Source of the DNA: Caprella mutica
Lineage: Eukaryota > Arthropoda > Malacostraca > Amphipoda > Caprellidae
Length of the DNA stretch: 64,000 bases
Direction: 5' to 3'
Assembly (NCBI GenBank): GCA_947561585.1
Contig: CANNZV010000501.1
Location: 1-64,000 of the forward strand
Positions 8,640 to 33,544 of this stretch are shown piece by piece. The translations under genes were made by a program, and so were the position numbers. The notes beneath the pieces are model-generated. The model did not search any database and was not told where the DNA came from. It saw nothing but the letters and a program-made list of their open reading frames with translations. Numbering within the stretch: the stretch's first letter is position 1; every line of letters starts with the position of its first letter.

Positions 8640-8641
8640 GA

Positions 8642-9477: not shown

Positions 9478-9601
9478 CCTTTGTTACCAACTTTGGCAAC
9501 AGTATCTAAAAGCTGAGTGGCGCACCACATTAAAGCGCACTACAATACATCGCACCACTGTACAGTTTGTACTTTCTTTTAATGGTCTCAACGTAAATGG
9601 C

Positions 9602-9712: not shown

Positions 9713-10156
9713 TACATATAACTGATAAGTTTTTATTAACACCTCACACTGAAAGTTTACAATAGTTACCCTTCTAACTTGTAAATTTTGGGTCAGGTCG
9801 TCTTGGAAAAAATATTTTTCCTGTCTTGCTATTAGTCTGACAAATTCCATTGTAGAATCACGTACTATAGCTTCGTGAATTCTCAAAATACTTAGAATTA
9901 TAAATCAATTATTTTTTAAGAAATTTATTTTTAACTGTCAGTTACAATAAAAATCAATTGGACAGACTTTTATATGTGTGCAAAAGAAAAAAAAATAATG
10001 TTAAGCCTTTAGAAACTGATCCTACATTAATTAATACAGTAGAACTCCTCTGTAATGAAGTCTTATTTAGTGAACCATCCTCATTAGTTGAGTCTCTAGT
10101 ATGAACTAACCACTGTAGTGAACATATTTAGTTTAGTCCGCCATAACCCAGGTAGC

Positions 10157-10455: not shown

Positions 10456-11137
10456 ATATCATTTTTGCATTGAATTATATCAATTTGACAAGTGAGTCAA
10501 ATTTAAATTGTAAAATTGTGATTTGGAAGATCTTAGTTTCAACAGTTTGAGATATTTACTATATTAAAATGGTCAAAATTTGGGCGAAATTCGTTGAAAT
10601 ATAATAACTGAAACTAAATTATCAGATATTATTTAAAAATAATAGTTAATAAATAACAACTAGATAATTAAAGTATACATATTTTTTTCATTTATTTAGG
10701 TACCTGTTTTGTTATACAATTATTCAAAAAGTGATATTGCGTCATTTCTTTGTTTAAAAACGATGAAGCTGCAACACTGCTATAGGTACCTGACCGTTTT
10801 TCCTCAATTTACAGTCAGTGTTAGTTTTGGAAAAAAAGTAGTGTGAAACATGACAGAATAAATAATATAAACTATCTTTATTTTTAATATACGTAGATAT
10901 TATTCTTTTGTGTTCTCTCTGTCATTAAAAAAATATTATTCAACTGTAGATTGCGACATTTCTTATGCTATAAACAGTAGAATGGCAACACTGCTTTATA
11001 ACCGTTTTCCGCTTTTCAAAATAGCGTTCAGTTTTTAGCCGAGATCACTGTGTCTGTGTAACATTTCGCTCTGTATTATTTCACCTGCTGCAAAACTTCT
11101 TGTGTTAAAACATTGAAAAATAATTTAAAAAGCATTT

Positions 11138-11485
11138 ATGTCTCTTAGGAAGAACTATTATACAATAAAAAAATCTTGTAGTGACATTGCAAATGAACTT
11201 TTAAGTGAAAATGCTCTTCCATCTTCCTCTCTTCTCCAAGACAATAACCCTGTCATTGAACAAAGACAAAGTGAGAGTGAATTCAGTGAATATTATGAAA
11301 ACAACACTGAAAATAATGTTGATGTGCATTCATTGAATGAACACCTTTCAGAAAGGTGTTCTTCTTCAAATTTTTCTGATCAACCAGATAAGCAGTCATT
11401 ATATTCTATGTATATACCTAAATGTGTCTTGCTTCCATACTCCCAGTCTGCAGAATATGGGACATTTTTAACATTTTCTGTGTGA
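11138..11485 (+). CDS. Hypothetical protein, possible first exon
   Basis: A 115-codon frame starting with an ATG and rich in Ser, Glu and Asn. The N-terminus is basic (Lys, Arg and Tyr within the first 15 residues) and is followed by an acidic, low-complexity middle. I recognise no domain. This composition is common at the N-terminus of uncharacterised transposon-derived proteins in insects, but that is an impression and not a match. It lies inside the candidate DNA transposon, about 1 kb from its left end, and may be the first exon of the element's gene. No downstream exon can be joined with confidence. It could also be a chance frame. Confidence 0.35.
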   Translation: MSLRKNYYTIKKSCSDIANELLSENALPSSSLLQDNNPVIEQRQSESEFSEYYENNTENNVDVHSLNEHLSERCSSSNFSDQPDKQSLYSMYIPKCVLLPYSQSAEYGTFLTFSV

Positions 11486-11689
11486 ACAATCCTTAATTTC
11501 TTCCTGTATTTACATGTATTTTACTGAGAACAAAAGCTAAAATAGAGGATTTCTTGGAGAACAGTTTACCAGTTCCTGCAGCCTGGCCATACTCTAATAA
11601 ATTCATGGTTTTTCCATTAGCTTACTCGGTCTGTATTTAGCGATCTGAACTCAGCTAATTAAGTACCTATTTGAATTAATTGGGCAAGA

Positions 11690-12410
11690 CTGTATTTTTC
11701 GGAATTTTTTCCCCTCTGTGTCTGATAATAATATTCTAGCCTAGTCGGTGGATTTCTAGCTATATATTCCTATGATACCATTATTTTTTTGTGGATAAAT
11801 AAAGAAAATGTTGGTTGACACAAAATTCCACTGACTTTACTGAAAAAAGTTTAAAAAACTGAAAAAATCCACCATAAATTTCCAGTATCTAATTCAGCTG
11901 ATCCACCAACATTTTCTCAATTTATCCACCGTAATTAATACCTCAAGTAAAATGGTATGGCTCATAAACAAAGTTAACAAACTCTCCACTTGTCTCTCCA
12001 AAAATGATCAAATTTCTCTCCAAAATGATCTAATAATCATTATTCTCTCCAAAATAAGTTAATCACATTGTAGCATAGGAGAAAATTTGATAGTTCTCAC
12101 CATTTGAAATTGAAGGGCTCCAAATAACTGTCACAAACTCACCATTAAAATGGCGAGTTTGGACATACTTTATTACCTGGGAACTTAATCGTAACATCTT
12201 AACATGGGATTAAATAGTTAAAGATCCACTGACTTTGCCAGAATATTATTTCCAAAGGGGGTTAAATTCTACTGACACGTTAATGGAATTTAGTAATTTA
12301 CCATAAAACTAAAAATAAATACTTGGTTAGATCAGCCAAATTATTGGAAATTCTTAGTGGATTTTTTCACCTTTTTGTAAAAGTCAGTGGGATTTTCAGA
12401 CCATGTTTCA
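11690..12410. repeat. Relics of hAT-like MITEs and the TCTCTCC repeat
   Basis: Imperfect, partly overlapping pieces of the hAT-like MITE occur on both strands (for example around 11740-11960 and 12230-12400). Between them, 11985-12170 carries repeated TCTCTCCAAAA and resembles 30600-30740 in the other orientation. Confidence 0.5.
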
Positions 12411-12427
12411 AACTTCAATTCAAAGTA

Positions 12428-12686
12428 CCAGTTTGTATTTGTTGCACTGAAATAAATTTGACTTTTTCAAAAATCTGAGAAATAGCTGCCAACATTTTTC
12501 ATCAATTTGTCTAGTCCTCCAACATTTTTCCAGTATCTCTTCTAAAAAGTAATGGTAATCCGTAATATAGGAATTAAAGGCTAAATATCCTCCGACAGGC
12601 GACATTGGACTTGGAGGAAATTTTTTATTAGAAAAATTGAATATCTCCCGAGATATCATTGGAATTTACCACCAAATACAATCTGG
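12428..12686 (-). mobile_element. hAT-like MITE, copy 2
   Basis: A 259 bp copy in reverse orientation, starting CCAGTTTGTATTT and ending AAATACAATCTGG. It is flanked by a perfect 8 bp duplication TCAAAGTA (12420-12427, 12687-12694). It abuts the second copy of repeat R1. Confidence 0.75.
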
Positions 12687-13230
12687 TCAAAGTATGGACA
12701 ACGTCGCCAGTGTATTAGCAACTTTTGAGGGGTGAAAACCGTGAAATAAATTGAAAAACAAGTGAATAAGTTAATAACTAGTAAATCACTCATAAAATAG
12801 TCTCAAGAGATACACATGCATCAGACATGCCAGACTGTATTTTGTGGTAAATTCCACCAACATGTCTGTGGAATTTTTTCCCTTTGAAAATAATATTCTG
12901 GCAAAGTCGGTCGTTTTTTTAGCTATTTATTCCTAAGTTACCATTAATTTTCTGTGAAAAAATGAGCAAAATTTTGGTGGATCAGACAAATTACTGGAAA
13001 TTTATAGTGGATTTTCTTCAGCTTTTTGAAAAAGTCAGTGAAATTTTGTGCACCAAATACTGACTGGCAGACATGAAGCACAACTTAGTCTGCACAAGGA
13101 TATTTACAGGTGTAAAATCTTCACTAGGAAGTCAAATTTCTTCTTTAAAGTAGCCTATCTTAAATGTGACGACCTGGATCCATTTTCTCACTAAACTGGC
13201 GACTTTCCTGCCACACTTTTAAACATGGTT
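12687..13230 (+). repeat. Dispersed repeat R1, second copy, interrupted
   Basis: Matches 1436-1703 but is split by the hAT-like MITE at 12830-13067. Removing the MITE and one CAGACATG restores collinearity with the first copy. Confidence 0.75.
12830..13067 (+). mobile_element. hAT-like MITE, copy 3
   Basis: A 238 bp copy starting CCAGACTGTATTTT and ending AAATACTGACTGG, flanked by a perfect 8 bp duplication CAGACATG (12822-12829, 13068-13075). The uninterrupted R1 copy at 1436-1703 shows the empty site, so boundaries are secure. Confidence 0.85.
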
Positions 13231-13445
13231 TTCAGATTTTGTGCACCAAATACAGACTGGATTTTTGGATACTGAAGCCAGTGTGCATTTGAATGATTTG
13301 ATGATCATAATCATATCAACTGACAATTAGGAAGATTGAAAATTTGAACTAAACTTCAGAAACATTCTATTTTGATCATTCATATATTTACTGATTATAT
13401 TGATGTTTTCCATTATATATTGTAATTTGTAAGTTACTCAATTTA

Positions 13446-13855
13446 GGTACTATCAGTCCATTCTTTATGCAACATTGGAAGTTAATTAATTAACTGTATT
13501 ATACTTCTATTAAGTAACTGGTATCGGACTTGGTAGCGGTATCGGTCACCAGAATTTTAAAGTAACTGTAATTGGTACTGGTATCAGTTACTAATATGTT
13601 ATCAGTGTATCTCTAATAAATTTACTATCAGTCTGTTCTTTTTGCAACATTGTAAGCTATTTAATTTACTATCAGTCCGTCCTTTTTGCAACATTGGAAG
13701 TTAATTAATTAACTGTATTATACTTTTAAAAAGTAACTAGCATCGGACTTGGTATCGGTTACTAATATGGTATCGGTGCATATCTAATTAATTTATTATC
13801 AGTCCGTTCTTTTCGCAACATCGGAAGTTATTTAATTTACTATCGGTCTGTTCAA
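13446..13855. repeat. Irregular tandem repeat (CTATCAGTCCGTTC unit)
   Basis: Five imperfect copies of a unit containing CTATCAGTCCGTTCTTTTTGC begin near 13450, 13622, 13668, 13793 and 13840. Two copies also share AAGTTAATTAATTAACTG and a following segment with ATCGGACTTGG. Spacing varies between about 45 and 170 bp. Confidence 0.6.
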
Positions 13856-14534
13856 ATATCTTTCAATCAGTTAGCTTATCAAATAAATTCTGATTTTTAT
13901 GCCTAGCTATTGCTTATTGGTGAAATTTTGATTAATTTATTAATTCAAGTAGCTATCATTATATAATATTAGTCATTAATATAATTGTATTTTTATGTAT
14001 ATAAATCTATGAAATCAAAATTATGTTTATATGCTATACAGGGTTGGCAAGGTAGGTTTCCCCCAAAGTGGGGAAACTGAAAACCATTTTTGGGGAAACC
14101 TAAATGAGCTATTCTTGTTACTTATCCAAGGGCTTAATGATGTCTGTATCCTCCTTTGATTTATAATTAATAACTACTTTCCCAATCAACATAGCTAAAA
14201 TTCCAATGACTTAGCTAGAATATTACTCTTAAAGGAAAAAGTTCCACCTATAAGTCACAGTTGGTGGAATTTTTAATGAATTATAGTCTGGGCTATGTCA
14301 AATCTAAATGACTGAGTGCGTCTTGCAGTGCCTGTTAACGTTTCTAGTATAATTCTTATTAATAAAGATGAAATTGATTTTGTTTTTATTAAATACTTTT
14401 ATTTAATTGAATAGTGATAACAGTTTAAATTATTTTTCATGTTTAAGGTGTTGGTGGCAATGCTCTTTGTACTACTTTATTTCTATTTTAATCCTTAATG
14501 AAGATCTAAATGTTAATTTTCTTTATTATTTCAG

Positions 14535-14683
14535 TTATGATCCTTGATGTCTGTATTCTGAACACCCATCAGCATGGCTGCTCCACCCCACCCCACTCAA
14601 CAGCAAATAGAATGGCGAATGTAGCTACAGCTTATTCGACACCTGGATATGACATCGATAGTCCTACTGCAGGAGAGATAAAT
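14535..14683 (+). other. Possible internal exon
   Basis: A 149-base stretch preceded by a pyrimidine-rich acceptor ending TTTCAG (to 14534) and followed by GTAAGAT, a good donor (from 14684). One frame is open across it, encoding Ser/Thr/Pro-rich sequence with phrases such as STANRMAN and TPGYDIDSPT. I do not recognise the protein. It lies in the candidate DNA transposon and could belong to the same gene as the ORF at 11138-11485. Confidence 0.35.
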
Positions 14684-15039
14684 GTAAGATGATGTACATT
14701 CAATGATTAACAGTCTTGGTGCTCATGATGTAACCTATTGAGATCCATGGTACCTTGTCTGTTGTTATTTGTGTACATCTCTTAACTGAACTACAAGCAG
14801 TTTCTTCATGAAAACACACATCGCTAAATATATTTCACTTGATAAGTGTAAGTATTGCAACATGAATTACTTACTTGAATCCATCAATGTATATATTTTT
14901 TGAATTATTTAAATAGCTTCCATTTTTTTCATTATTTATCTAATTTTAACATTGTTACAGCTCTTCATACTATCAAAAACCAGATGATGGATTTCTTACT
15001 TTTAATATTGTGTAGTACTTAACTACAATACATGTCAGT

Positions 15040-15420
15040 ATTAAATATTTCCCCAAAGTTATGGTAATATTGGAGTTATAAATATATGTTACCACAATAT
15101 TGTGTAGTAATTAAATACAATACTGTCCCAATGTTGGAGCAATATTGTAGTTGATATTGGGTAAATAATGTACAAAATATTGCCCCAATATTGTATAGTA
15201 CTTATATACAATATTGGGACAATACTGTCCCAATATTGGGGCAATACTGTCTCAATATCACCCCAATATTGGGGCAATATTGTGGTTAATATTGGGGCAA
15301 CACTGTACACAATATCGCCCCAAGATTACAAATCCGAGTATTGGGGCAATATTAGGATTGATATTGCCTCAATATTGGACACAATATTGGGGCAATATTG
15401 TCCCAATAAATTTTGCTACG
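15040..15420. repeat. Right subterminal AATATT array
   Basis: About a dozen imperfect copies of CCAATATTGGGGCAATATTG and its complement. Open frames here on both strands (reading as repeats of QYWGNI or similar) are by-products of the repeat and should not be taken as genes. Confidence 0.7.
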
Positions 15421-15424
15421 TGGG

Positions 15425-15797
15425 AAATTGCAATGCGTTTTCTATGCATCTCTATTGTCCGCCATAAGTGGCCATTAGTTTTCTATGAATCTCTGAGTCT
15501 ATTTAGTAAATAAGTTGCATTTCATTGAAGAGGAGTTCTACCATTACAACTCTAAAACATCTATATAAAAGGCATAGAAGTAAACCACCCTGATATCCTG
15601 TATAATGAATAGATTTAAAAAAAAGTATTTATTCATTGAAGTCTCCCATGAATAGGCCAGTTTTCTATTCATCTAGAGTAAACTAGTTGAAGTTCACTAT
15701 ATAGGAGTTCTACTTTGGTCAGTTTAAGAGTTTTTCATGGTGACCTATTAAAATGTTTAACAGTATTTTGCTCAACATTACTAAATATAATTTTCCA
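15425..15797. other. No gene; outer inverted repeat relic
   Basis: Contains GAGGAGTTCTAC at about 15531, the counterpart of GTAGAACTCCTC near 10040, and a second similar phrase near 15704. Otherwise AT-rich and featureless. Confidence 0.4.
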
Positions 15798-16230
15798 ATT
15801 CTTCAGTCAGTACTGAAGCCAGACCATTTACCTAGTTTTTTCTGTTTCACATGCATTACTATAGCTTGATAATTTCCAATCTAAATTAATTCTTCAGTCA
15901 GTACTGAAGCCAGACAATTTACCTAGTTTTTTTTTTCTATCTTTTTCATATGCATGACTATAGCTGGACATTTTCCATTCTAAATTAATTCTTCAGTCAG
16001 TACTGAAGCCTGACCATTTACCTAGTTTTTTCTATTTATTATGCATGACTATAGCTTGACATTTTCCATTCTAAATTAATTCTTCAGTCAGTACTGAAGC
16101 CTGACCGTTCTTTTTTATAATATGATATATAATAGTATAATATTGAAAAGATAAATAGAGGAAATGGTCAGGTTTCAGTACAAACTGAAGAATTAAGATA
16201 CTAGAATGGGAAATTATTAGGCTATAGTAG
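15798..16230. repeat. Stem-loop tandem repeat, 90-99 bp unit
   Basis: Four units begin AATTCTTCAGTCAGTACTG at 15798, 15888, 15987 and 16079. Each contains the hairpin CTTCAGT-CAGT-ACTGAAG (7 bp stem, 4-base loop), followed by GACCATTTACCTAGTTTTTT. An inverted, diverged copy lies at about 16160-16230. The array sits next to the Rep-like pseudogene; I see no nonanucleotide of a viral replication origin in it. Confidence 0.65.
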
Positions 16231-16469
16231 TGAATTTATAATTGGAAAAATTAATTAGATGTCAGAGATTCAGTAACTGAAAAAGAACTTTAATTCATCA
16301 ATTGACAGAGTACAAATAAAGAAAACTAAATTTATTAGTAAATTCCACAATTAAGACCTTTTCACTTTCTTCTTCCCAAATGAAGTGCCCAGTCGAAGAA
16401 TGAATCGTCGAAATCTGAATCATCAAAAAGATCCAATTCTGGTACAGGTTTGACAGTTCTCTTTGATCT

Positions 16470-16712
16470 TTATGGTTTGAAGGGAAGACTTATTGATTTC
16501 AGATTACTGAAGGATAGTGCATACTTTGCTGACGATGAGCCACCAGAAGTCATCGTCTCTGAATGTTGTGAGGATTCTATTTCTGCAACAACTTCTGGTC
16601 TTTCATAAATCGTGTATAATTCTCCCATTACTTGGATTTTTCGAAATATTCCTTAGAAAGCTTTGTTTGAGTACCTAGCTGTGAATGGTAGAGAATGGCA
16701 CCTTGGCTGTAT
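16470..16712 (-). other. Possible 3' exon region downstream of Rep-like gene
   Basis: On the minus strand a pyrimidine-rich tract ending GTTTTCAG (to 16713) is a plausible splice acceptor for the donor at 17188. If used, the Rep frame would continue for about a dozen codons and stop. Another frame begins at an ATG near 16632 and runs about 52 codons (phrases MGELYTIYERPEV and SISLPFKP), ending near 16476. Whether any of this is translated is unknown; I recognise no domain. The stretches 16231-16469 and 16713-17189 hold nothing else. Confidence 0.3.
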
Positions 16713-17189
16713 CTGAAAACACTAAAATTTAAACTTACTGAAAGAAATTAAATATTTTCTGAGAAAAAAAACAATAGACTCAAATTTGTATTTGTGCTAT
16801 GTCAAATTTCTATTTTGAACCAATTAAATATATTAATTAAAAACAACATGTACCGTATGTCCCACAAAAAACTACACTATTTTAAAATTTAACAAGCTTG
16901 TTATAAATATAAGAAATATATTTAGTCCTTTTCATTAATAAATTCAAGGTTTATAATTATTCATTATTATGCTTGCAAATTCTAATTATTTTTTTTTCAC
17001 TAGAATTAGCAAGCAAAGTAATGCATGGAAATTAAATCATTGTATTAAAGATTTGGAAAACAATATATTTATTTCTATTTTTAAGGAAAGTTTATTTAAT
17101 TTCTGAATAAAGTACTTGTGGAACTCGCTATATACAAACTTAATTTTGTAAATATTAACATAAATTTGACTATATATTAAAAACATACC

Positions 17190-17471
17190 TGATTCAATTC
17201 CGCACTGCTCTTTGGTGAAATCCCCAATATGGGAAAAGTTCCCACTTTTAGTACAATACCGGAAATTTACCAGAGCACTTTCACGGGCACAGTCCCAAAA
17301 GGCAAAACCAAAGATCTTTCGACAGTGCCCCAACTTATATGACCCATCGAATTCAACATAACACTGCAAATGCCTTGTGCCTTCATTGCTAATCTCTTTG
17401 CCCATCACTGCTCTTTTAATTTTGAAAACAGGATTACGAAGATGAGAATTGTAATCCCGTTCAACATCATA
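17190..17471 (-). pseudogene. CRESS-DNA virus Rep-like gene, main part (EVE)
   Basis: On the minus strand an uninterrupted frame of 94 codons enters from the LTR junction at 17471 and runs to 17190. It carries the second and third rolling-circle motifs of a circovirus-like replication initiator: HLQ at about 17372-17364, followed by an aromatic-rich strand, and YCTK at 17258-17247 with the catalytic Tyr and its Lys partner. The intervening pattern of basic and aromatic residues also fits the HUH endonuclease fold. Rep proteins normally have about 300 residues with an SF3 helicase domain; none is visible here. The first 15 codons, with motif I, lie at 28637-28681 beyond the LTR retrotransposon. 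After 17190 the frame meets GTATGT, a strong splice-donor-like sequence. The homology call rests on motif recognition by eye. Confidence 0.8.
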
Positions 17472-17476
17472 GTTAT
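17472..17476. repeat. Target-site duplication GTTAT (left)
   Basis: Five-base GTTAT directly before the left LTR, repeated directly after the right LTR at 28637-28641. Confidence 0.85.
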
Positions 17477-18716
17477 TATTAAATTGCCCTTTTCCTATGG
17501 GATTGATAGTAAATTATCACCTATTTTCTAAGTAGATGAGGCTTGTTAATAAACTTATCCCATAGGGCAAAATAAGTCTCCGGGTTCTTTAACAATTATT
17601 TGTATTTCTTAACTTGAAGAGACTTGGAGGTAATTGATTGAATTCTATTAAACTGACAAATGACTAAACGGTAAAAGTTTTTAGGAAGTAAATTAAACAC
17701 AAGGAAGTTTTAAATGGGTGTACTTATATTAAAGTTCGAATAGTACAGAGTTCTAAGACTTACGCACAAGTCTTTAAATAACACAACACAAGTTTTAAAT
17801 AAACTAGCGGTTGAGTAAACTTAAGGGTTTTAAATAAACAAGGGTCTGAGTTGCCAACTCACGACACCCGTGGATGGACAAGTCCGACCAGACTTGGTCC
17901 GACCAACCAGTCTTCAAGAGACCATCGCGAACTATGAACACTTTAGTTAGGTGTCAATGGTATTTAAAGGATGAACTGGAGAGTCCAACCTTCCAGTGAG
18001 TGAATAAACTTCTGTTAAGGTACTGATAGTACTTTTCAAAGATGTTTTTCTACTCACTGCAGATAGAAATAACACACAATGCATTATTCAAATTTAACAC
18101 GCTAGTGGTAATGGCTTTCTATACGATTAACATATAGATTGATCAGATTTACTAAAAGTTCATTTTAGTGAAACCTGATTTACTAATAAACATCCAAATT
18201 TAAGCATACTATTTCAGAGTCCTGTTTAACCTATACATGATCAGAAATGTTACAAGTTCCTAACTATTAATTAAGTATTTCAATTAGAATAATTGAAGTA
18301 CTTACTTAATTCTTTTTAAATTAATTAAGTATTAATTTCAATTCTATCTATAGAAAAAGAACTCAATATTCTAAGTTGTATAACTGATTTACAAAGTTCA
18401 TGAAGTTATATAACTTAGTACAAATTATAAAGTTATATTCTGAGTTACAAGTTATAGCTCTGGGTTACAAGTTATAAAGTTATGTTCTGAAGTTACAAGT
18501 TATATTAGCGGCTTACATCAAAGCTATTCGTTTATAATTATATTCGAGCTCCTAGCGAGAATAACATGACCATAAATTTAAATAGCATTTCCTTCTAATG
18601 AACAGTGTACAAGATTAAAAAGATTATGTCTGATTAAATGATTATCAAATTATAGAAATTGAAAGATTAAGTAAAAATACAAGTTCAGCGTATTAACAAT
18701 CTTTCTATTGTTAATA
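17477..18716 (-). repeat. LTR element B, 3' LTR (left)
   Basis: 1240 bp, starting TATTAAATTGCCC and ending TTGTTAATA. The ends form the inverted repeat TATTAA/TTAATA, not the usual TG/CA. It contains a small internal repeat around AGTTACAAGTTATA (about 18360-18510). Confidence 0.9.
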
Positions 18717-18732
18717 TCACTCCCCCCTTCAT
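18717..18732 (-). promoter_or_regulatory. Polypurine tract of element B
   Basis: Read on the minus strand, GAAGGGGGGAGTGA directly precedes the 3' LTR, where the second-strand primer of a retrotransposon is expected. Confidence 0.75.
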
Positions 18733-19697
18733 GTTTCAACCGACTTGTCGGTTGAATTTCAATTTCTAAACCCTTATTATCGAAATCCAATCGAAAAAAT
18801 ATCCTAACAAATTTCGAACAACACTCGGAAAACATCCTATGAAATTTCTTAAAATTTCTAAGTCCGAAACACAAATTATATCTATTAAAACAAAAGAAAT
18901 TTAATCACTCGATTCATGTATTATGAATTTCAGATTAAAATTTGATCTGCTAAATAGATCAGTCTTTTCATCATAAAATTTGTGTGTACAAAAATATGAT
19001 GACAAGACAATTCCTATCATATATGTAATCATGAATTCTACCTCTGGTCAAGATATTAAATCAAAATAGAGTAAAAATTTATAAGTTATTCTACTCATAT
19101 TCAGAAACATACATCAAAAATATATTTTCATTTTATGGAATTTTTTTAACTAATAAAGATATTCAAATATCTAACCTTGTTTATAATTATTCAAAATTGA
19201 ACCTGAAATCCCATTTCAATTAGTTCTAAAATTCAAAACATGAAACATCAAATTATAAATCTCAAATTCAATTTGAACAATCATAAAACTTCAATCTATT
19301 ACTGCTAAATTTATATTTTAATTTTTTTAAATAAAAGTAACCATTACCTTTCTAAAAATTAAATATTTATGTTCTCGTTTCTTAAACACTTAAATGGAAA
19401 TAGTATCCAGGTGAATGTCTAGTCATTGAAAACACCCTTAAAGTTTTTCTTCAAAATATAAAGTTCGTTTAATACTTTACTGCAATATAGTCCAACTATA
19501 AACATCTTACTTTCATTCAAGCACCAATATTATAATGCTTACAAATAAGATTATCAATAAAATCTAAGCATACGATTATAATATTTCTACTATTATTATA
19601 TCTTCTACTTCAAGCATCGTAATTTGAAACGTCGGAAATAAAGTTAAGTAATTTTCAAATGAAATTAATTTCAAAATCAATAGAGATTAATTACTTT

Positions 19698-19866
19698 TCA
19701 TATTTCCAATGAATATAATCTATAATCAATAGAACTTAGTTAACTTTCATATCTCAAATGAATATAATCTATAGTCAATAGAACTTAGTTAACTTTTATA
19801 TCTCAAATGAATATAAGCTATAGTCAATAGAACTTAATTAACTTTTATATCTCAAATGAATATAAT
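19698..19866. repeat. 56 bp tandem repeat, three copies
   Basis: Units contain TCAATAGAACTTAGTTAAC and ATCTCAAATGAATATAA, with a period of about 56 bp and a few substitutions. Confidence 0.7.
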
Positions 19867-22385
19867 CTTACATCAAAATCGAAACTTCATTATAGTTTAT
19901 TCTAATTCCAAAATATTCATTTCAGAATATATGAGTATAACTAAATTCGTTATTACTTATCTTAAACTTCTCTTTTCTTAAACTATGGTTATATATGTTA
20001 TGTAATATCATATGAGCTATATTATTGGTTAGTATTCATCTATACTATTGTTAGCTTTACATAACTTATTTTTATTCGTATTGAATAAACATATTCAGAT
20101 TTCGTTTAAAATATTCAATGAAATTAAAAGTTACTTTAAATCAAATGTTCAACTTCGAAATCTGTAAACTATCAAATGAAATCTTAAGTAATCCTTTAAA
20201 GAATTAATTTTCAAATAAACATCAATGATTAAATGCTCATAACCTGAATGTTTCAATAAGCAATTAGTATATAAACTTTCTTTAAAGTAAATTCAAAGTA
20301 TAGAAATCTAAGATAATTGGACTAAAGTAATAATCCAAAATTTAGAATAATAAGATCAAGGTGAAATGATCTAAATGTGTCGGTACCATCAGAGAAGACT
20401 TCTCAAAGTAGGTACATGAGAGTTGAAGCCCCCATGTTCATTCTCCTCCTTCAGAATGAATGGTTCCCTCAGGTTATCGGGCATTGGTTTGTGACGTCAC
20501 CAAGTATGACTGCGAAGTCGTCACCAAGTATGATTGTGAAGTCATCATCAAGTATGACTGTGAAGTCATCACCAAGTATGCTCCACTGATCAGCCTTCTC
20601 GTCACCAGGCGTAGCTCGGCTTATCCTTTTCGGATCAACAAGTTACTGGTGTTGGATTGGTCCAACATCTGGTTTGTTATTGCTCTGCTCCAGTTTCTCG
20701 AGAGATGTTTTTCAAGTTTTGGAAATAAAAATAAATCAGCATTAATTTAAGTATAATTAGGATTATATTTTTACCTAACTATTACTTTTAGACTTACAGT
20801 TGAAGGATAATATTACTATTTTACCATTGCTAAAACATGATTGTTTTAATTATTTCCAAAATTTTGTACAATGATTCTACAAAATTCTTTAATATTATAG
20901 TATTGTTATAATCCTTCAAGTAATATCATAGTTTGATAATATATATCTCACATAACATTTATTTCAAAATATACCTCATTCAGTTTACAATACATATTCC
21001 TATTATTATAAAACTGTAAAGAAGGGGTTAGTTTATATATATAACATATTTTTCACTTAAAACTAGGTTCATGAAAATCTTGGACACAATCAAAACTGTT
21101 ATGTTTATTTTTATTGTTACGTTACTCTACAAGATTTTCACTTATAGTGATAAATTCATAGTAAAATCAAGTAATTCACCTTCAACCGATGTCTTGCCCA
21201 TAACGTCAGATCGTCAGATGGATGGGGTTCATTGCTTTTGGTTAGCCTCCTTTACGTGTGTTTCTGCAATTACAGGTGAACTTTACTAGCTTATTCAAGA
21301 AACTTACATCTTACATAGATTATTTATCTACTATTACATTACATTTCATCAATAATTATAAGTGTTAGTCAACATAATTTTCTTAATTACTCTTAACTTA
21401 CAAACACACAGTTATTTATATATATTTTATGTTTCACTAAACATCAATGCATTATATATATAATTTACATTTCTTTAAACATCAGTGTATATTGTAGTTA
21501 CCCTGAAGAGTTAATGTTATTGATCTAACCATTGAAAGAAATTAATTGAACACAAACTATGTCGTTTTTTAGCTATTCATTATATTTCGTTATGTTCCTT
21601 TTATAATCATAAATTCTCGTACAGAATTAAATTTCATTAATTTTTTTCATTTGTTTTAACTCAGGTTTAATGTATTCATTTACTTTTTCAAGTAATAATT
21701 TAAATATCATCAAGATTCTTGTTATCATTAAACTCAATACTCAAAAATATTTTCGTAATTCCCATTTATCACTAAAGAGCCTTTTACTCTTATTTCAGTA
21801 TCATTAAACTTTTCAACAGTTTTCTTTATATTGAATCCATACATTATTTATTAAATTATTTAACTGTCCCTTTTAAACTCAAACTTTTTAATTACATTTA
21901 AACTGCTATACTGAGTTTAATTAATAAATTCATATACGTAACATGAACGTATTTTACAATTCATTTACATTTATTTTTATGAAATAAATCCGTTCTATTC
22001 GATCGCTTTTATTATTTACGATTTCATTTTAATCCTTTTTATACTCATGTAAAATCAACTACATTCATTCTTTTATAAATCTGGAAATATTACGGTTCCC
22101 CCTTGAAATTTTTCTTTAGAAGAAGATTTTCTTCTCAGGGTATTTACTGTACTCTGGTTGACCTTTGAATCTGCAATTACTGTTTTCTCTTAGTAATATT
22201 TACCCTTACAGTTTAGAATGAATATTCTTTATGTATTAGGAATATCCCTTTTTTTTCAAATATCAACATATAATTATTATACATCTTGATTTATAACTTT
22301 CTAATATATTTATCTCACAATTCCATGTATAATCACACTTAATTACACTTCAATTCATTATTGTAATCTTTTTGGGGTCTAATTT

Positions 22386-22565
22386 TATTCTTCATTCTGA
22401 GAGGAATAAATAGAATGTTCCCCTGAGATTATTCTGAAATTCTTAGAGTCTATTGTATTCTTCGTTCTGAGAGGAATAAATAGAATGTTCGCCTAACTTA
22501 TGTTTGGAAATTCTTTAGGGTCTACTTTATTCTTCATTCTGAGAGGAATAAATAGAATGTTCCCC
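22386..22565. repeat. 70 bp tandem repeat, three copies
   Basis: Each unit contains TTCTGAGAGGAATAAATAG followed by AATGTTC; copies begin near 22386, 22456 and 22527. Confidence 0.75.
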
Positions 22566-24536
22566 TTAAGATTGATTCAAACATTTCCTTCATAACAGAA
22601 TGGTTATATATTTATATATTATCATATATAAAAGTTTTAAACGAACTATATTTTTCAGCAATTATTTTATATATCATTGTACATAAACATTAGAATTGAA
22701 GTACATGTATATTATATTGCATGTTTTCATTGTTCATTATACATTCAATAGTATTCGACTATTTATTTAGAATTCATTTCTAAATTTATATATCAAGAAT
22801 TCAGTATCTTTATTTTAATTAACAAGTACAAACATTTTTATTTATCATCTTGAAAATCAAAAATTCAACATAAAATATTACACTTCTATCATAAATAAAA
22901 GAATTCAAATTAAATGTGAGATAATATTAATTGAAATATTTGCTTCGTATCTTGTTATCATTCAAATCATTCGTTAAACTCTCCATTTGTTATGGTGTTT
23001 CAAATATTAGTTCCTGCCACATCTTGGATTGTATAACAATACAGTTCATAGAGAACAGTAGATTGAATTACTTCATGTCATTTAATTATAAATAACTATT
23101 AATTCTTATTCATACATTGTTCTTACAGGTTCTAATTCCCACACAAGTAATAACTTATATAACTTCAGTTCCTCAAATTTATCATATTATTAAATTATGA
23201 TATTACACTTATTTCATGCCATTAATTCCATGATTTTATTTCGACGAAGAACCTGTAACTCATTTATTTATCAAACATTACAGTTATCATTAAAAGAAAT
23301 CATCAAGAGCTCTCTTTCAAACTCATTTATTTATCAAATAATTAATTAAATAATTAATTATTATTTCTGAGTAACCTACTGGAATAATCACATTAATTCC
23401 TATATCTTTTATTCTCCATATAATACTCATTATTTTATTCATATTATATCCTTGCTATCGTCAACTATAGTGTTACTGACTGTACCACCTCGACTAATTT
23501 TAATAGCTCTGTTGACAATAACTACCCACTTGAAAATTTACATCGCTTCCTTCAAGATTACGTTTAGTCTTGACTTTTTACTAGTCAACTATTATAAAAT
23601 CAAGTTTCGTTATATTTTTACATTAAGTTATATTAATATATATATAACGTTTGCTATATTTTATACTTTATTAATAGAAAAATAGTCTGACGATAATTGT
23701 TTTATCTCTTATACATTTATGTTCGATTGCTTGCATTTAATTCACTATTCAAATCAAGTCTTACAATTTAATTATAAAATTCAGCAAATCTTTGCTCTTA
23801 TAGTATTTTCTTTCTCAGAATTATCGTCTGACAAATACAATTGTCTGAATTCATATCGTTTTTTATACGATTATTTCGTTCATATGAACTAATCACCTAT
23901 GTGATTATTTTAAGTTATTATTCGTCACTGGAATAATTACAACAACTTCTTATTTAACAGTTAATTATTTATACTCAATATATATTCAATATACGTAAAC
24001 GGCGTTGAATCTTCCTTATATCGTTGTTTCGTTCATTATTGAGTTACTGGAGATTTTACGTTAAAGCATATAATTATTTAATTACGTTAAACAATAACCT
24101 TTAATCAAATCAATTATTTCTTACTTTTAATTATTACAGGAATATAGTTTGAAACTACATCACATATTGATTATTTAGTATCAAACCTACTTTCCCCTCT
24201 ATGTTACCACATATTACCCGATATTACATTAACTATGGTTAAGCAGTATTAACCTCTAGGTAACTTTAAATCTCATCAAAAATATTCAATATACAATATT
24301 AATATCAAAATAGTCATTTAAATATTCAAGATATATATATATCTACATCATTCCTTGTCAATCTTTAAATCTGTTTCACTCTTTTTATACTGAGTCACAC
24401 CTCTGAGTTTAATATTTACGTTATATCTTATTTACGTTAACTCATTATCTGACTTGATTGTCTTAAATCACTGAAACGATTGACAGGTTCTTCTTTCAAA
24501 CACTGCGATTATTACTATTTGAATAGGAATACATCA

Positions 24537-25057
24537 TAATTATCAATTGACTTCATCCCTGAAAATTAGGTATGATTCGTTACATATGTACGTTACGTGC
24601 ATATCATAGGTATTTCCGGTTTACCTGAAACCTTGTTTATTTTTATAAATATAAATTGACATTATAATTATCTATTGACTTCATCCCTGAAAATTAGGTA
24701 TGATTTCGTCATATATGTACAATACGTGCACATCTTAGGTATTTGCGGTTTTACCTGAAACCCTTTTTATATTTTATAATATTACAACTCAATGTTGTAT
24801 CTTAGGTATTTGCGGTTTTACCTGAAACCCTTTTTATATTTTATAATATTACAACTCAATGTTGTATCTTAGGTATTTGCGGTTTTACCTGAAACCCTTT
24901 TTATATCTTATAATATCACAACTCAATGTTGTATCTTAGGTATTTACGGTTTTGCCTGAAACCCTTTTTATATCTTATAATATCACAACTCAATGTTGTA
25001 TCTTAGGTATTTACGGTTTTACCTGAAACCTCGTCTATATTTTATAATATGACAACT
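24537..25057. repeat. 67 bp tandem repeat, five copies, plus longer variant
   Basis: Copies of CTTAGGTATTTGCGG start at 24734, 24801, 24868, 24935 and 25002, a period of exactly 67 bp. Two longer related units (about 123 bp, with CTTCATCCCTGAAAATTAGG) precede them. Confidence 0.8.
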
Positions 25058-27377
25058 CATTTGACCTTCACTGACTTAAAGGATGTTTTGACCCTATAGT
25101 CAGATATTCACATTCGTGACTGTACTTTCGGTATATTTCTATATGATATAACCGTTTCTTATGATATCAACTTCTCTCGATTTCATTTTCTCTTGATATT
25201 ACCTACTAAATAAAACAGCGTAATTTATAATTTCCAAAGATTTTAATCGACGTTATTGCTTTTTAAGCCACAAACAATAAATATCATTTCATTAAAATGT
25301 GCAAAATTAATGAAATACGAGAATGGGTTAATTACTTCCATTCCAGTACTAAAAATATGGAAAATTACCTCGTTAATATAAAATAGGTATATCGTTACTT
25401 TACCAAATTCACCTTTGGTTATTTACATGACAAATTCACAGGTTATAAGACCCATTTAATTTATCATCAACTTGGAATATTTTTATTCTCCTTATCTGTG
25501 AATATACAGTTACATATTCCATCTGTATCTCTATTTATGAGTACACAGGTTACTACTAATATATTTGCAACTATATTAGCTCATTTAAACATTGTTCTAA
25601 TGTTTTTTACTTAATACTTTAAAAATTCATACTTTCAAAATAGTATTTTAAGTTCGTTCTCGTCATTCGAACTTTCTCTCTAAGCTTCTTCGAAATTCTT
25701 ATATACGATTTTCTGAATTCTTTTATAATTCTTTATTATAATTATACTTCGCCTTTTATAGGACAACAACAGTTATTTTGTTATATAACGTGCTTTCCAC
25801 GTTATTTGCAATCTTCGTGAATTTATACAACTTTCACTTTCTGAAACATACGTTCCATTAGTTTTCAATGATTTTACTTATAGAATAATTATGCAAAATA
25901 AATTAGATTTAAATGTCGTTCTCAGTCAGATAATTATAAAAGTACTGAAATACATGGTATTTTTAGCCTATTAAAATGTAAATAGTTTTCACTATCCCGA
26001 CACATCTAAAATATTCTGTGCAATTAATATATTCCCAGATTCAATTATATCTGTTAAAAGTTTATAACCTTTAAATGATACACATTGACTAAAATTGTCA
26101 TATCATCTTACTTTACTACTAACTGCGCTATTTGAGGCTACTGGTCTTTGACACTACTTTTTACTCCACTATTTGAGACTATGATATAAATCTATCATTC
26201 CCCCCCAGGAATGTAGTGTCATAACTACACTTTATATTACTATAGGGACCTTTGTGGCAGGTTGTAACTATTTGTGTCGTATTTTGGTAAAGCCATTCTT
26301 TATTACATACTACCTTATCTAACAAAACCTTTCAATATACACTGTAAAGATTAATAATTAGTAAAGATTAATAAAGACAATATAAAATTCACAATACAAA
26401 AATATAAGTAGACATTATTATATTCCAGACACAAAATTCATTACAATATATTAACTTTAGGTTAAATAGTTAAATAGCATCACCTAATTTGCCTCTCGTT
26501 GTTTAGCTGCCTGTTTACCAGATGGTAGTGTAGATTATAAATCTCATGTAGGGTTGCCTCATAGCTCTCCCTTTTTCTGGAGTCATTCGATTTCTTCTGT
26601 TCTCCCGTTTAGATTGTAGATTTCATGAAGTATTGCCTCGTAGCTCTCCTTTTTTCTACTTGCGCTGTTTCTTGTCCTCTTCTTACTGCCTTTCCTTCGT
26701 AATCCCTTGGGTGATTACCGCCAGGTAAAAGTGAGTTTCTGTTGCGATGTATTTTTGTCGCTGTTAGTACTTTGACGCTAATGCCTAGCCACCTTCACTT
26801 AATTTGGCGTATCCGTGCCCAGCTCGAAGTTTGTGTTGCAGCTTGGATGATTGAGTTTATTTATACGCACCGCTCGTTTTATACTCAGCTCGAATTTTCT
26901 CACCGGTCTTTAGAATATTAATGGTATTCTAGAACAGTTTTTATAGTTAACTGCTGTTAACTTGAAAAGTATCCTTTCACATGTCATGTGAATCTTTTCT
27001 GTTGCTTCTCCTTCCCTCTCTTCCTTCCCTTTTTATGAAGTGCTGCAGGACTTCCGTATGTGAGTTGAAAGGGTGTGTTCTCCCATATGTGATGGAAGAG
27101 TGTGTTCTCCCATCGGCATTGTAGAGTTGCTCCCGTAATGTCCTTTTATCGGAAGGAGTGTGATTGGCTAGTTCACTCGCATTACATTCAATGCTTACCT
27201 AGTGATTAACACTGTATAACACTAGGGTTTCATAGTTCTGGTTTTGTACCCTCTTTATCACTGACACTGTCTTTCCAACTTTCCTTTTACTTCTCTAAAA
27301 ATCTTTAAACCATTTATATTATGTCAGTTCTTTTCGTTAATAGATTCTAACCTCTTTTTCCTCCCTCTTTTCTTCAA

Positions 27378-27395
27378 GACCGTTTGAAGATGCCA
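27378..27395 (-). promoter_or_regulatory. Primer-binding site candidate of element B
   Basis: One base inside the 5' LTR the minus strand reads TGGCATCTTCAAACGG. It begins TGG, as required to pair with a tRNA 3' CCA. I cannot name the tRNA. Confidence 0.55.
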
Positions 27396-27396
27396 A

Positions 27397-28636
27397 TATT
27401 AAATTGCCCTTTTCCTATGGGATTGATAGTAAATTATCACCTATTTTCTAAGTAGATGAGGCTTGTTAATAAACTTATCCCATAGGGCAAAATAAGTCTC
27501 CGGGTTCTTTAACAATTATTTGTATTTCTTAACTTGAAGAGACTTGGAGGTAATTGATTGAATTCTATTAAACTGACAAATGACTAAACGGTAAAAGTTT
27601 TTAGGAAGTAAATTAAACACAAGGAAGTTTTAAATGGGTGTACTTATATTAAAGTTCGAATAGTACAGAGTTCTAAGACTTACGCACAAGTCTTTAAATA
27701 ACACAACACAAGTTTTAAATAAACTAGCGGTTGAGTAAACTTAAGGGTTTTAAATAAACAAGGGTCTGAGTTGCCAACTCACGACACCCGTGGATGGACA
27801 AGCCCGACCAGACTTGGTCCGACCAACCAGTCTTCAAGAGACCATCGCGAACTATGAACACTTTAGTTAGGTGTCAATGGTATTTAAAGGATGAACTGGA
27901 GAGTCCAACCTTCCAGTGAGTGAATAAACTTCTGTTAAGGTACTGATAGTACTTTTCAAAGATGTTTTTCTACTCACTGCAGATAGAAATAACACACAAT
28001 GCATTATTCAAATTTAACACGCTAGTGGTAATGGCTTTCTATACGATTAACATATAGATTGATCAGATTTACTAAAAGTTCATTTTAGTGAAACCTGATT
28101 TACTAATAAACATCCAAATTTAAGCATACTATTTCAGAGTCCTGTTTAACCTATACATGATCAGAAATGTTACAAGTTCCTAACTATTAATTAAGTATTT
28201 CAATTAGAATAATTGAAGTACTTACTTAATTCTTTTTAAATTAATTAAGTATTAATTTCAATTCTATCTATAGAAAAAGAACTCAATATTCTAAGTTGTA
28301 TAACTGATTTACAAAGTTCATGAAGTTATATAACTTAGTACAAATTATAAAGTTATATTCTGAGTTACAAGTTATAGCTCTGGGTTACAAGTTATAAAGT
28401 TATGTTCTGAAGTTACAAGTTATATTAGCGGCTTACATCAAAGCTATTCGTTTATAATTATATTCGAGCTCCTAGCGAGAATAACATGACCATAAATTTA
28501 AATAGCATTTCCTTCTAATGAACAGTGTACAAGATTAAAAAGATTATGTCTGATTAAATGATTATCAAATTATAGAAATTGAAAGATTAAGTAAAAATAC
28601 AAGTTCAGCGTATTAACAATCTTTCTATTGTTAATA
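27397..28636 (-). repeat. LTR element B, 5' LTR (right)
   Basis: 1240 bp partner of 17477-18716, identical by eye except for one transition near 27801. The near identity indicates a very recent insertion, because both LTRs are copied from one template on integration. Confidence 0.9.
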
Positions 28637-28681
28637 GTTATTAAGGGTCAATACCCATCTTGATTTTTGGAGATTAGCCAT
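28637..28681 (-). pseudogene. CRESS-DNA virus Rep-like gene, N-terminal 15 codons (EVE)
   Basis: On the minus strand an ATG at 28681-28679, with an in-frame stop a few codons upstream, opens a frame whose residues 9-15 include WVLTLNN. This is rolling-circle motif I of circovirus-type Rep proteins, where FTLNN is typical. The 15th codon ends exactly at 28637, the first base of the GTTAT target duplication. The frame then runs into LTR element B. Across the element, at 17471, the frame resumes in phase. This piece alone would be unrecognisable; its meaning comes from its position and motif. Confidence 0.8.
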
Positions 28682-29263
28682 GTTGGTCCTTTAAGTGCGA
28701 AGATTACTGCTTAACTGAAATTCACATTGGTGTAACACTATTATGGCTTTTGTAGAACATGTTACTGTCGATGAGCGCAATACTTTCACCATTGTTCATA
28801 TATTTATGAGTTGATTTATTCTACCTCTTGTAATTCATTGTCTGTTCTTGACATCAAAAAGTACATTACATTATGAGTGTCATTTAATTCCAAACAGTTC
28901 ATACATTGTGGTAGCCATATAAAATTATGAATGGTTTCCTTATTCAAATATCTTAAACTTGCTATAACTCTGTTTGAAGACAATTTTCACTCGATTTTTA
29001 GAACTGTGACTCTGAAGTTATTTTGTTCAATTACGACAGCTAGCTAAATAATACATTAAGCAACAAAAACTCAATGGATATAAATCGTTAAGTTTTCAAT
29101 TACACATTTTGAATAATGATAGATATTGAGCGATCGAATCTATAAACAAAGTAATTTAACATCATTCTATGGGGTTACTATTTATTAATAAAATACTCCT
29201 TTGGTTGTGGTTAGTTTAATAGTGCAATTTATTATTGATATAACATTTATTATACTGTGTGTA
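28682..29263. other. Upstream flank of Rep-like gene, nothing else seen
   Basis: AT-rich sequence with no long frame. If the Rep-like gene had a promoter before interruption it would lie here (minus strand), but I see no clear TATA or initiator. Confidence 0.4.
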
Positions 29264-29267
29264 TATC

Positions 29268-29370
29268 GGGGGGCGTGCCGCCCCCCAAACTCCCCTGCCA
29301 GGTCATTAAACAATCATGAAGTGTGCAGTACAACAAACCAGCGGATACAACAAACTACATTACAGCTTCC
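29268..29370. repeat. Dispersed repeat with GC-rich hairpin
   Basis: Contains GGGGGGCG-TGC-CGCCCCCC at 29268-29286, an 8 bp perfect stem in AT-rich surroundings. It continues into sequence that is the reverse complement of 9602-9712. Probably the end of a MITE or Helitron-like element; a CTRR-type terminus was not found. Confidence 0.6.
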
Positions 29371-29792
29371 CATGTCTCGCAACCTTTATACTGTTTAATA
29401 TTTCACTGTTCAATGACATGACCCCAGTTATAATAAAAACTTCCAATTAATTCAGGAAGATATATAAATACCAATACATTGTTAGTACAATTAAATAAAT
29501 TCACAAGCGCTTGCCACCATTGCAATGCTATGAATTATGACCAATATTACTCTTTAAATGTCCTACTTTTATTGAACCTTTGTCTACCATCAGGCGAACT
29601 TTATCAAATAGATTATTCTCTAAAAACTATGAATTGTTATCATAGATTTCATCAATTTAGCAAATCATTAAGGTTAAAAATAGCACTTGCATAATGTGTA
29701 TAATTTATCTATGGAATCAGTAGGCATTGAAAAGTTCTGTTTAAGGCTAGAGTGTTGGGGGCTGGGGCTAGGGCTAAAGTAATATTATAAAC
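29371..29792. other. No feature recognised
   Basis: AT-rich; short frames only. A GGGGGCTGGGGCTAGGGC patch lies just before the next repeat. Confidence 0.4.
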
Positions 29793-30373
29793 TTTCATAT
29801 CCGTTACTAATCAATGTCTATTTATCATATTATGATGAAATATTTGATATGAAAATTAGACGCATCCCCTTCATATCGATAGGTAAAAAGTTAATTCATT
29901 AGTGTTTCGTGTGAAAAATATTAGAAATAGCAATTATAGATAAGAATATAGATATAGTTCAGGTGTGTTTATATTGTTCTTTTTTTACTTATCAATAAGA
30001 AATAAGGTCTTAAACATTGTAGTGAGCGACCTCTGGTGGCGAATTTGTGTGAAAAAAGTGTGGTGTCAAATAGTCATTACGATCTGTCATTGCTGGTTCG
30101 AAATTAGTCTGAATGGTGTGTTTTGGAACAATCTTTTATCTAACTCATTCAGTGAACTCATTTTCAATTTGTTCAATAATGTGTATAGTTTATTTGAGAG
30201 TTTATATAGAAGTTTATTTTTTCTTATAAATTTGATAGTTTATTCAATTGTATATTTGTTCTATTAAATTTGATGGTTTATTCAATTGTTTAATTGTTCT
30301 TTTAAATTTGATAGTTTCACTAAAAGTTATTGGTTGATAAGGATGCTTATTCTCCAGTATTTTAGTCCCTCTT
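29793..30373 (+). repeat. Partial copy of the 55-64 kb tandem unit
   Basis: About 580 bp closely matching 55245-55823 and 59861-60440, starting TTTCATATCCGTTACTAATC and ending near TTCTCCAGTATTTTAG. It includes the phrase GCGACCTCTGGTGGCGAA. A frame of 100 codons at 29965-30267 is shared with 60092-60337 but is Phe/Leu-rich, lies in repeated DNA and is broken in the 55 kb copy, so I do not call it a gene. Confidence 0.8.
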
Positions 30374-31741: not shown

Positions 31742-32032
31742 GTAAGTTCTCGAATGAACTAATTTTTATTGAGAACTACAAACGAAATGAAAATTTGCCT
31801 ATATAGGCCGAATAGCTAATCTATAAAATTTTCATTTTACACCTAATAAATAAATAGATGAATAAATAAATACACTTAATAAATTTTCTTGCCAGCTATG
31901 TAACACAACATTTCCAAAATGATTACAAACTATGACATTTTTTGTAATTAGCAAAATTAATTTAACATATTCCTGTATTGAAATATTGTTTTTCATCTGA
32001 TAATCTTATTTAGCTTCTTCTCTTGTTCCTGA
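31742..32032. other. No feature recognised
   Basis: AT-rich intervening sequence with an AATAAATAAATA patch near 31845-31875. Confidence 0.35.
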
Positions 32033-32036
32033 ATCT

Positions 32037-32431
32037 GCAATTCACTCTGGTGCTGTGACTGCAATTCACTCTGGTGATGTCACTGCAATTCACTCTGGTG
32101 CTGCCACTGCAATTCACTCTGGTGCTGCCACTGCAATTCACTCTGGTGCTGTGACTGCAATTCACTCTGGTGCTGCCACTGCAATTCACTCTGGTGCTGT
32201 GACTGCAATTCACTCTGGTGTTGCCACTGCAATTCACTCTGGTGCTGCCACTGCAATTCACTCTGGTGCTGCCACTGCAATTCACTCTGGTGCTGCCACT
32301 GCAATTCACTCTGGTGTTGCCACTGCAATTCACTCTGGTGCTGCCACTGCAATTCACTCTGGTGCTGCCACTGCAATTCACTCTGGTGCTGTGACTGCAA
32401 TTCATTCTGGTGATGTCAGTGCAATTCACTC
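32037..32431. repeat. 24 bp minisatellite, about 16 copies
   Basis: Unit CACTCTGGTGCTGCCACTGC plus AATT, period 24 bp, with GCTGTGACTGC and GATGTCACTGC variants. Because 24 is a multiple of three and the unit lacks stops in several frames, long frames appear on both strands (eight-residue repeats such as TAIHSGAA or NCSGSTRV). I treat these as repeat artefacts, although transcription cannot be excluded. Confidence 0.9.
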
Positions 32432-32844
32432 TGTGTCACGGTGGATACCCTGATGGTATTGTTAGAACTCTGTTTTGTCCATGTAGCTAACTTCTCCCTT
32501 AGTTAGCTACATGGTAGGATTCTTTACAGCCCTACCTACCATTTTTTCTGAAGTGACTTTACATAATATGTATAATTCATATGTAAGTAGCAGGTTGAAA
32601 TTCAGTTATGATACTAGGTTGTTGGTAGGCTTTTCAAATCTCATGTAGAATATTGTATCTTTTTTATGTGGTTGAGGGCGGGGGTCTGATTATCAGACTA
32701 GGGGTTTTTGTAAACATTTTTGCCGGTCACCCAACTTGTTATCACGATGCTATCTTCTGGGTAGGCCTTCTTTTTGTTATATTGTAGTTTTTTTAATTTA
32801 GCGTCTCTTTGTATCTCTCCTCTTCCTTCTGCTTTGCTATGTCG
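32432..32844. other. Spacer; homologous to 51400-51480 at its right end
   Basis: The last 80 bases (GATACAAAGAGACGCTAAA on the minus strand) match the flank of a single inverted unit of the next minisatellite near 51440, so the array lies inside a dispersed repeat. The inverted pair GTAGCTAACT / AGTTAGCTAC occurs at about 32482-32512. Confidence 0.5.
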
Positions 32845-33379
32845 ATGGGTAAACAGACTGACTGTGTAGGTCTCTTATCCATGGGTAAGCAGACTGACAG
32901 TTTAGGTCTCTTATCCATGGGTAAGCAGACTGACTGTGTAGGTCTCTTTTCCATGGGTAAGCAGACTGACTGTGTAGGTCTCTTTTCCATGGGTAAGCAG
33001 ACTGACTGTGTAGGTCTCTTATCCATGGGTAAGAAGACTGACTGTGTAGATCTCTTATCCATGGGTAAGCAGACTGACTTTGTAGGTCTCTTATCCATGG
33101 GTAAGCAGACTGCCAGTTTAGGTCTCTTATCCATGGGTAAGCAGACTGACTGTGTAGGTCTCTTATCCATGGGTAAGCAGACTGACAGTTTAGGTCTCTT
33201 ATCCATGGGTAAGCAGACTGACTGTGTAGGTCTCTTATCCATGGGTAAGCAGACTGACAGTTTAGGTCTCTTATCCATGGGTAAGCAGACTGACTGTGTA
33301 GGTCTCTTATCCATGGGTAAGCAGACTGACTGTGTAGGTCTCTTATCCATGGGTAAGCAGACTGACTGTGTAGGTCTTA
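32845..33379. repeat. 36 bp minisatellite, 15 copies
   Basis: Fifteen units of exactly 36 bp, each starting ATGGGTAAGCAGACTGAC and ending GTCTCTTATCC. Variants differ at a few positions (TGTGTAG or AGTTTAG). The unit is open in frame on both strands, giving 12-residue repeats (plus MGKQTDCVGLLS, minus MDKRPTQSVCLP). Fewer than two units occur at 51347-51405. Confidence 0.9.
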
Positions 33380-33544
33380 AGTCTAACCCATGGATGTCTA
33401 TTTTTGTGGCATTTCATTATACATCTATTCCCTATAATTAGCAGCTATATTTCATGTGTTGAATATATCTTTGTAAATATTATTTCACAGCTTTTAATAT
33501 CATCGTAATAAATAATACTTTATATATTTTCATTTAATCCAATA

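Follow-up and report, generated by a model that had tools for sequence, protein, structure and literature searches.

What is the gene for a virus-type replication protein (Rep) that lies, cut in two by a long terminal repeat (LTR) retrotransposon, in the genome of the amphipod Caprella mutica? The window that we analysed, the whole stretch of 64,000 nt, covers positions 1-64,000 of the forward strand of contig CANNZV010000501.1 (GCA_947561585.1). A sequence-only reading of this DNA had described two minus-strand pieces of a Rep-like gene from an endogenous circular Rep-encoding single-stranded (CRESS) DNA virus, flanking an LTR element with a GTTAT target-site duplication. We propose that the window copy probably belongs to a family of transposons that carry a predicted tyrosine recombinase and would multiply by Rep-driven rolling-circle replication, and that the LTR element split this copy only after its helicase exons had, as we infer, been lost.

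The two Rep pieces form a single predicted exon in a gene for a circovirus-like Rep, as relatives that were never split show. Of the 15 residues in piece 1, 13 stand at the start of the relative P0003, which continues unbroken, with 69% identity to piece 2, and at eight other places in the genome (L001-L008) the window's two flanks are contiguous and the exon is unsplit; L028 is a longer fetch of the place of L001, and pieces 1 and 2 were analysed separately. The codons of piece 2 (17471-17190) are open, and the last base of the exon is 17189. At the junctions the sequence bears out the coordinates that had been given for the pieces, the LTR element and the GTTAT duplication (Table 1); piece 2 does resume in phase, piece 1 being 45 nt long and thus a whole number of codons, and P0003 and L001-L008 settle in favour of a single protein the question of whether the pieces came from one protein or two. 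The expected profile match was also found, since piece 2 alone matches the Pfam family Viral_Rep (PF02407; 37.5 bits, cut-off 26, E = 2.9e-9); piece 1 is too short for a search of its own.

Searches with other members of the family agree with this assignment. A profile of six members matched eight PDB sequences at E 0.01, all of them named Rep or replicase (best E = 1.4e-9). For the predicted structure of P0003, with a mean predicted local distance difference test score (pLDDT) of 74, the first six matches were nanovirus and circovirus Rep nuclease domains (E ~3e-7 to 9e-7), and the same model matched 478 models of a viral structure library at E 0.001; among the 50 listed, those with names were nearly all Reps. 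Because of these profile and structure matches, we identify the predicted protein of the window's family as a HUH nuclease of the circovirus/nanovirus kind. As in CRESS-type Reps of PF02407, the nuclease has three motifs, LTLNN in piece 1 and HLQ and YCTK in piece 2, which we take to be motifs I, II and III. Downstream of the predicted splice donor, locus L002 has further frames with the stretches GNFGKS, FDISR and PIVVFSN, which, read by eye, would be Walker A, Walker B and motif C of a superfamily 3 (SF3) helicase.

The window's Rep gene has many relatives. When the genome (903 Mb in 7,200 contigs) was searched with P0003, at least 150 Rep matches came up (256 candidates, 150 scored), with the window's place in row 10; by hand count, 106 of the 150 listed matches have no stop and 44 have at least one. 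The description as an endogenous CRESS virus Rep therefore holds as far as the type of Rep is concerned, and is not supported in so far as it implied a single remnant, the window copy being one of these genomic matches in units with defined ends. Copies C74 and C332 share 7.75 kb at 99.7% identity, with unrelated sequence on both flanks and GGTAA at both ends, and copies C19 and C1185 share 8.1 kb at 99.3%. In the group with a partner gene, whose unit is ~8.1 kb, eight copies match a ninth at 98.5-99.5% identity along 5-6 kb; the left-end sequence of this group recurs at 14 of the 15 loci and its right-end sequence at eight of nine, with differing flanks. Many copies, fixed ends and unrelated flanks are what is expected of a DNA transposon. 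The fuller copies are units of 7.7-8.1 kb with a predicted spliced Rep, in which the HUH nuclease is followed by helicase-like motifs. Two further Rep matches, from other subfamilies, lie on the window's own contig (C501:143004-143342 and C501:171129-171395).

The partner gene of the ~8.1 kb units lies upstream of Rep on the opposite strand, and its last exon matches Phage_integrase (PF00589) at 25.1 bits, below the cut-off of 27.1. A genome search with that exon gave at least 137 matches (136 of 1,421 candidates scored). Among the partner matches listed, a recombinase-like match lies within 12 kb of 61 of the 150 listed Rep matches, whereas chance would give 0.55 linked pairs in all arrangements together; in 57 of the 61 it lies upstream of Rep on the opposite strand, and for 54 of these 57 the distance is 4.0-7.1 kb. 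To judge from the sequences, the arrangement is not the outcome of one recent burst of copying, because the identity of the partners runs down to ~30%. Of the catalytic pattern R..R..H..Y of tyrosine recombinases, an R, an H and a Y are invariant in all four members in the later part of the second gene (read by eye). We tentatively predict that the gene encodes a tyrosine recombinase, and call it only recombinase-like because PF00589 matched in one of four members and because neither a profile search of the PDB nor a predicted structure gave anything usable.

One insertion site is consistent with such an enzyme. The copy at C370 interrupts a reverse-transcriptase-like frame, and when its flanks are joined with one GTGGAACT the host frame continues; a tyrosine recombinase would be expected to leave such an 8 bp core, common to element and target. 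There is no target duplication outside the shared core at C74, C332 or C370. The Rep frames also appear to have been under selection in at least some subfamilies. In 15 pairwise comparisons of Rep frames, drawn from six loci, synonymous divergence (dS) was saturated in 12. The ratio of nonsynonymous to synonymous divergence (dN/dS) was 0.07 for L018-L024 (dS 1.7) and 0.10 for L009-L018 (dS 3.2, near saturation), both rough values from distant pairs, and 0.38 for the near-identical pair L021-L022. The low dN/dS of the two distant pairs suggests that in their subfamilies Rep was maintained as a functional protein.

We propose that the recombinase-like enzyme would excise the unit as a circle, that Rep would nick this circle and copy it by rolling circle, and that the enzyme would insert circles at a short core, so that new copies arise elsewhere in the genome. 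The core would be GTGGAACT, to judge from one clear site, and GGTAA in another subfamily, which has it at both ends. Because no recombinase-like gene was found in it, the window's subfamily would depend on recombinase supplied in trans, or on Rep alone, and Rep-only members of this sort are likely to be mobilised by others. We put at just short of an even chance the broader view that such units form a class of eukaryotic transposons of ~8 kb, in which a tyrosine recombinase is combined with a complete, predicted-spliced CRESS Rep, and which would depart as circles, be multiplied by rolling-circle copying and reintegrate at a short core; Rep-only members, such as the window's subfamily, would live off the full ones.

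Several observations weigh against this proposal. Many of the linked pairs are near-identical copies, such that independent cases are fewer than 57; the first 49 Rep matches, including the window's subfamily, have no partner among the partner matches listed, and there is no recombinase-like match in the C74 unit. The PF00589 match in one of four family members is sub-threshold, and a relative of 635 amino acids (aa) has no PF00589 match. The profile search of the second gene gave no PDB recombinase, its structure prediction is poor (pLDDT 55), and no relative was found in the protein collection at E 0.001 (924 candidates). On the Rep side, a Pfam scan of four Reps of other groups gave no helicase match. 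The GTGGAACT core rests on the one clear site at C370; several other insertions lie in minisatellites with GTGGAATTTTCC-like units, where the core is similar and the exact ends are ambiguous, and the left ends at C301 and C3732 deviate from it. Lastly, TAATATTAC, which we take to be the nonanucleotide of CRESS origins, occurs in the window at chance frequency. A 7 bp inverted repeat frames it in L002, L003 and C74, but we do not count a rolling-circle origin hairpin at this site as evidence, since the fold is no better than that of shuffled sequences (z -1.0). TA(A/G)TATTAC was absent from the part searched in the groups of 291, 308 and 288 aa.

An alternative possibility is that the copies go back to an endogenous virus that was amplified: CRESS viruses, whose Reps may have been spliced, would have integrated repeatedly, or once with later duplication by the host, and no transposon would be involved. 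The Pfam, PDB profile and structure matches to circovirus-type Rep are what such an origin predicts, and many Rep copies in other invertebrate genomes (59 in the salmon louse and 56 in Varroa) are put down mostly to repeated invasions in the account of PMC3198968, which also reports 18 in Hydra. We nonetheless consider it unlikely, given near-identical units of 7.7-8.1 kb with fixed ends and a second gene in unrelated flanks. Nor did the C74 and C19 units have a long frame besides those on the Rep side and the recombinase side, although no search aimed at a capsid was made. Five scans of viral contigs, which depend on exact matches to short patterns and detect close relatives only, and one genome-contig scan found no close viral relative. 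A phage collection gave one weak match (27% identity, E 0.2), and there was no match in PHROGs, or in Rfam at the gathering score.

It is also conceivable, though less probable again, that Rep is a passenger that sits by chance in other repeats, such as satellites or retroelements, and that the gene is amplified by them. Several insertions are indeed in GTGGAATTTTCC-type minisatellite or in other repeats, and the window and L028 have some flank in common. A passenger would not be expected to keep its frame across divergent subfamilies, with a dN/dS of ~0.1 in the two estimable pairs, or to maintain its order and orientation relative to the recombinase-like gene across the full range of divergence of that gene. 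That Rep is a domesticated host gene family of viral Rep origin, for which the predicted intron, the open frames and the low dN/dS in two pairs might speak, is very improbable for a set of at least 150 dispersed matches that includes near-identical groups and 44 matches with a stop.

If the window copy is a member of such a transposon family, as we favour, how did it come to its present state? Its gene is predicted to be spliced: a donor-like site occurs at the same place in all nine loci compared (the window, L028 and L002-L008, with the variant CGG/GTATGT in L008), an acceptor-like site follows 473-490 nt past the donor in the eight loci other than the window, and P0002, P0003 and P0004 cease to resemble the window just beyond the predicted donor. 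On the C74 unit the window aligns with 4392-5548, 5540-6409, 7631-8732 and 8752-9104; it is thus without a 1.2 kb stretch that comprises most of exon 2 and the next, helicase-like exons, and ~5.4 kb with no match to the C74 unit separates its 3' part from its right end. An identical 1.2 kb jump is found in L028 and L004, neither of which has the LTR insert. The left part is cut 5 bp before TAATATTAC in the window and L028 and in none of L002-L008, and the window and C1421 copies are 98-99% identical. We infer that the helicase exons were deleted first, followed by truncation on the left, duplication to the window and C1421 sites and, finally, insertion of the LTR element.

The gene would hence have been broken before the LTR element landed, with its HUH exon still open, because L028 and L004 carry the same deletion without the insert and because the remnant of exon 2 is out of frame. 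The sequence-only reading had found the Rep frame free of stops, which is so for the HUH exon, both pieces being open; its suggestion that the gene was intact when the retrotransposon landed is not supported, given the deletion shared with L028 and L004 and the exon 2 remnant, out of frame by eye. It had also seen the HUH domain only and no SF3 helicase, in keeping with a Pfam scan of 67 of the 117 minus-strand open reading frames (ORFs) of at least 32 aa at positions 1-17600, in which no helicase was found; the scan gave six families, with one member each and a best E of 0.011. When copies of the window's subfamily are compared, the exon piece shows no higher conservation than the non-coding upstream DNA, and the intron part is less similar; this too counts against our proposal, and it speaks neither for nor against selection in this subfamily.

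Table 1. The split Rep copy and the LTR element inside it (positions in the window).
Feature	Position	Strand	Remarks
Rep element right end	9765..10146	-	matches C74 unit 8752-9104, 83%; ends AAGGGTAA
Rep element 3' part	15533..16631	-	matches C74 unit 7631-8732, 84%
Rep exon 2 remnant	16632..16712	-	frame lost after ~12 codons (read by eye)
Predicted intron	16713..17188	-	476 nt; donor CAG/GTATGT
Rep exon 1, piece 2	17189..17471	-	94 codons and one further base, up to predicted splice donor; has motifs II (HLQ) and III (YCTK)
Target-site duplication GTTAT, left	17472..17476	+	from junction sequence
LTR element inside exon 1	17477..28636		11,160 bp
LTR, left copy	17477..18716		1,240 bp
LTR, right copy	27397..28636		1,240 bp, 1 mismatch to left copy
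Rep element upstream part	28634..29792	-	common to L001-L008, 96-99%
Target-site duplication GTTAT, right	28637..28641	+	from junction sequence; piece 1 ends with one copy
Rep exon 1, piece 1	28637..28681	-	15 codons, ATG start, motif I region, open frame
TAATATTAC	29779..29787	-	5 bp inside the point where window and L028 diverge from L002-L008

The LTR element is likely non-autonomous, because its internal region has no ORF longer than 104 aa, and its near-identical LTRs suggest that the insertion is recent. The LTRs start with TATTAA and finish with TTAATA, instead of TG...CA, and the element contains 67-bp and 49-bp tandem repeats. Flanking the Rep copy, at 29793-30334, is a repeat that recurs at 55245-55789, at 59861-60404 and beside the sister copy L028. 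Elsewhere in the window there are two sequences resembling long interspersed nuclear elements, one at 35487-38255 with a frame of 922 aa that has endonuclease and reverse transcriptase domains, the other at 41227-44099, where a reverse transcriptase frame is accompanied by an endonuclease match below threshold. Minisatellites with units of 24, 36, 14 and 16 bp lie at 31939-33485 and 51981-53154. A tandem duplication of ~4.5 kb with 160-bp repeats occupies 55037-63969, parts of which are also found at C1421; each duplicated unit has a minus-strand frame of 256 aa with no Pfam match (57792-58562 and 62246-63016).

Rep 'fossils' in animal genomes are commonly taken as traces of infection and are used to assign hosts to viruses. 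If large sets of Rep sequences are parts of transposons, the hosts assigned and the copies counted would have to be reconsidered, and a route by which Rep passes between viruses, plasmids and transposons would become testable. A unit of Rep plus recombinase would, moreover, add replicative, circle-based mobility to the eukaryotic repertoire.

The Rep of circoviruses and nanoviruses (PF02407) resembles that of the window's family in its HUH fold, its motif I, HLQ and YCTK, and its order of nuclease and helicase-like stretches; by contrast, the window's family is predicted to be spliced and has a high copy number in its host genome, and no capsid gene was noticed, though none was searched for. 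Cryptons have a tyrosine recombinase and insert at a short core without inverted repeats, as is proposed for the units described here; Cryptons are not known to carry a Rep, and the second gene had no Crypton-specific Pfam match. In Helitrons, a two-tyrosine Rep is fused to a Pif1 helicase. A Helitron does not fit the PF02407-type Rep with its one-tyrosine YCTK motif, or the lack of a Helitron or Pif1 match in Pfam for the Reps scanned; Helitrons insert between A and T, according to PMC10741241. Replitrons, as characterised in the same paper, resemble the units described here as eukaryotic HUH transposons with short direct repeats at their ends and no inverted repeats. They measure 900 bp-4 kb, occur in algae and seedless plants and make target duplications of 2-8 bp, unlike the units of 7.7-8.1 kb with a helicase-like part and a recombinase-like partner; we rejected this assignment on size and on the lack of a duplication outside the core at the three loci named above. 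In the fungus Tuber, a geminivirus-like transposon also combines Rep with another gene for mobility on a repeated element; it is described as having terminal inverted repeats of 37 bp and a pair of transposase ORFs (PMC3198968), where the units described here have a recombinase-like gene and a short core common to element and target. Endogenous circovirus-like Reps are known from invertebrate genomes, sometimes dozens in each (PMC3198968, PMC6069186, PMC4573495), and section 7 of PMC3198968 suggests that integrated Rep genes may behave as selfish elements; the family described here differs from them, as they are presented in those papers, in its units of ~8 kb with defined ends and, often, a linked recombinase-like gene. 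Among open-licence papers, judged by title and the start of the abstract, we found no eukaryotic transposon that joins a CRESS Rep to a tyrosine recombinase. If the broader view is right, to which we gave slightly less than even chances, the class would be a eukaryotic counterpart of integrating rolling-circle plasmids.

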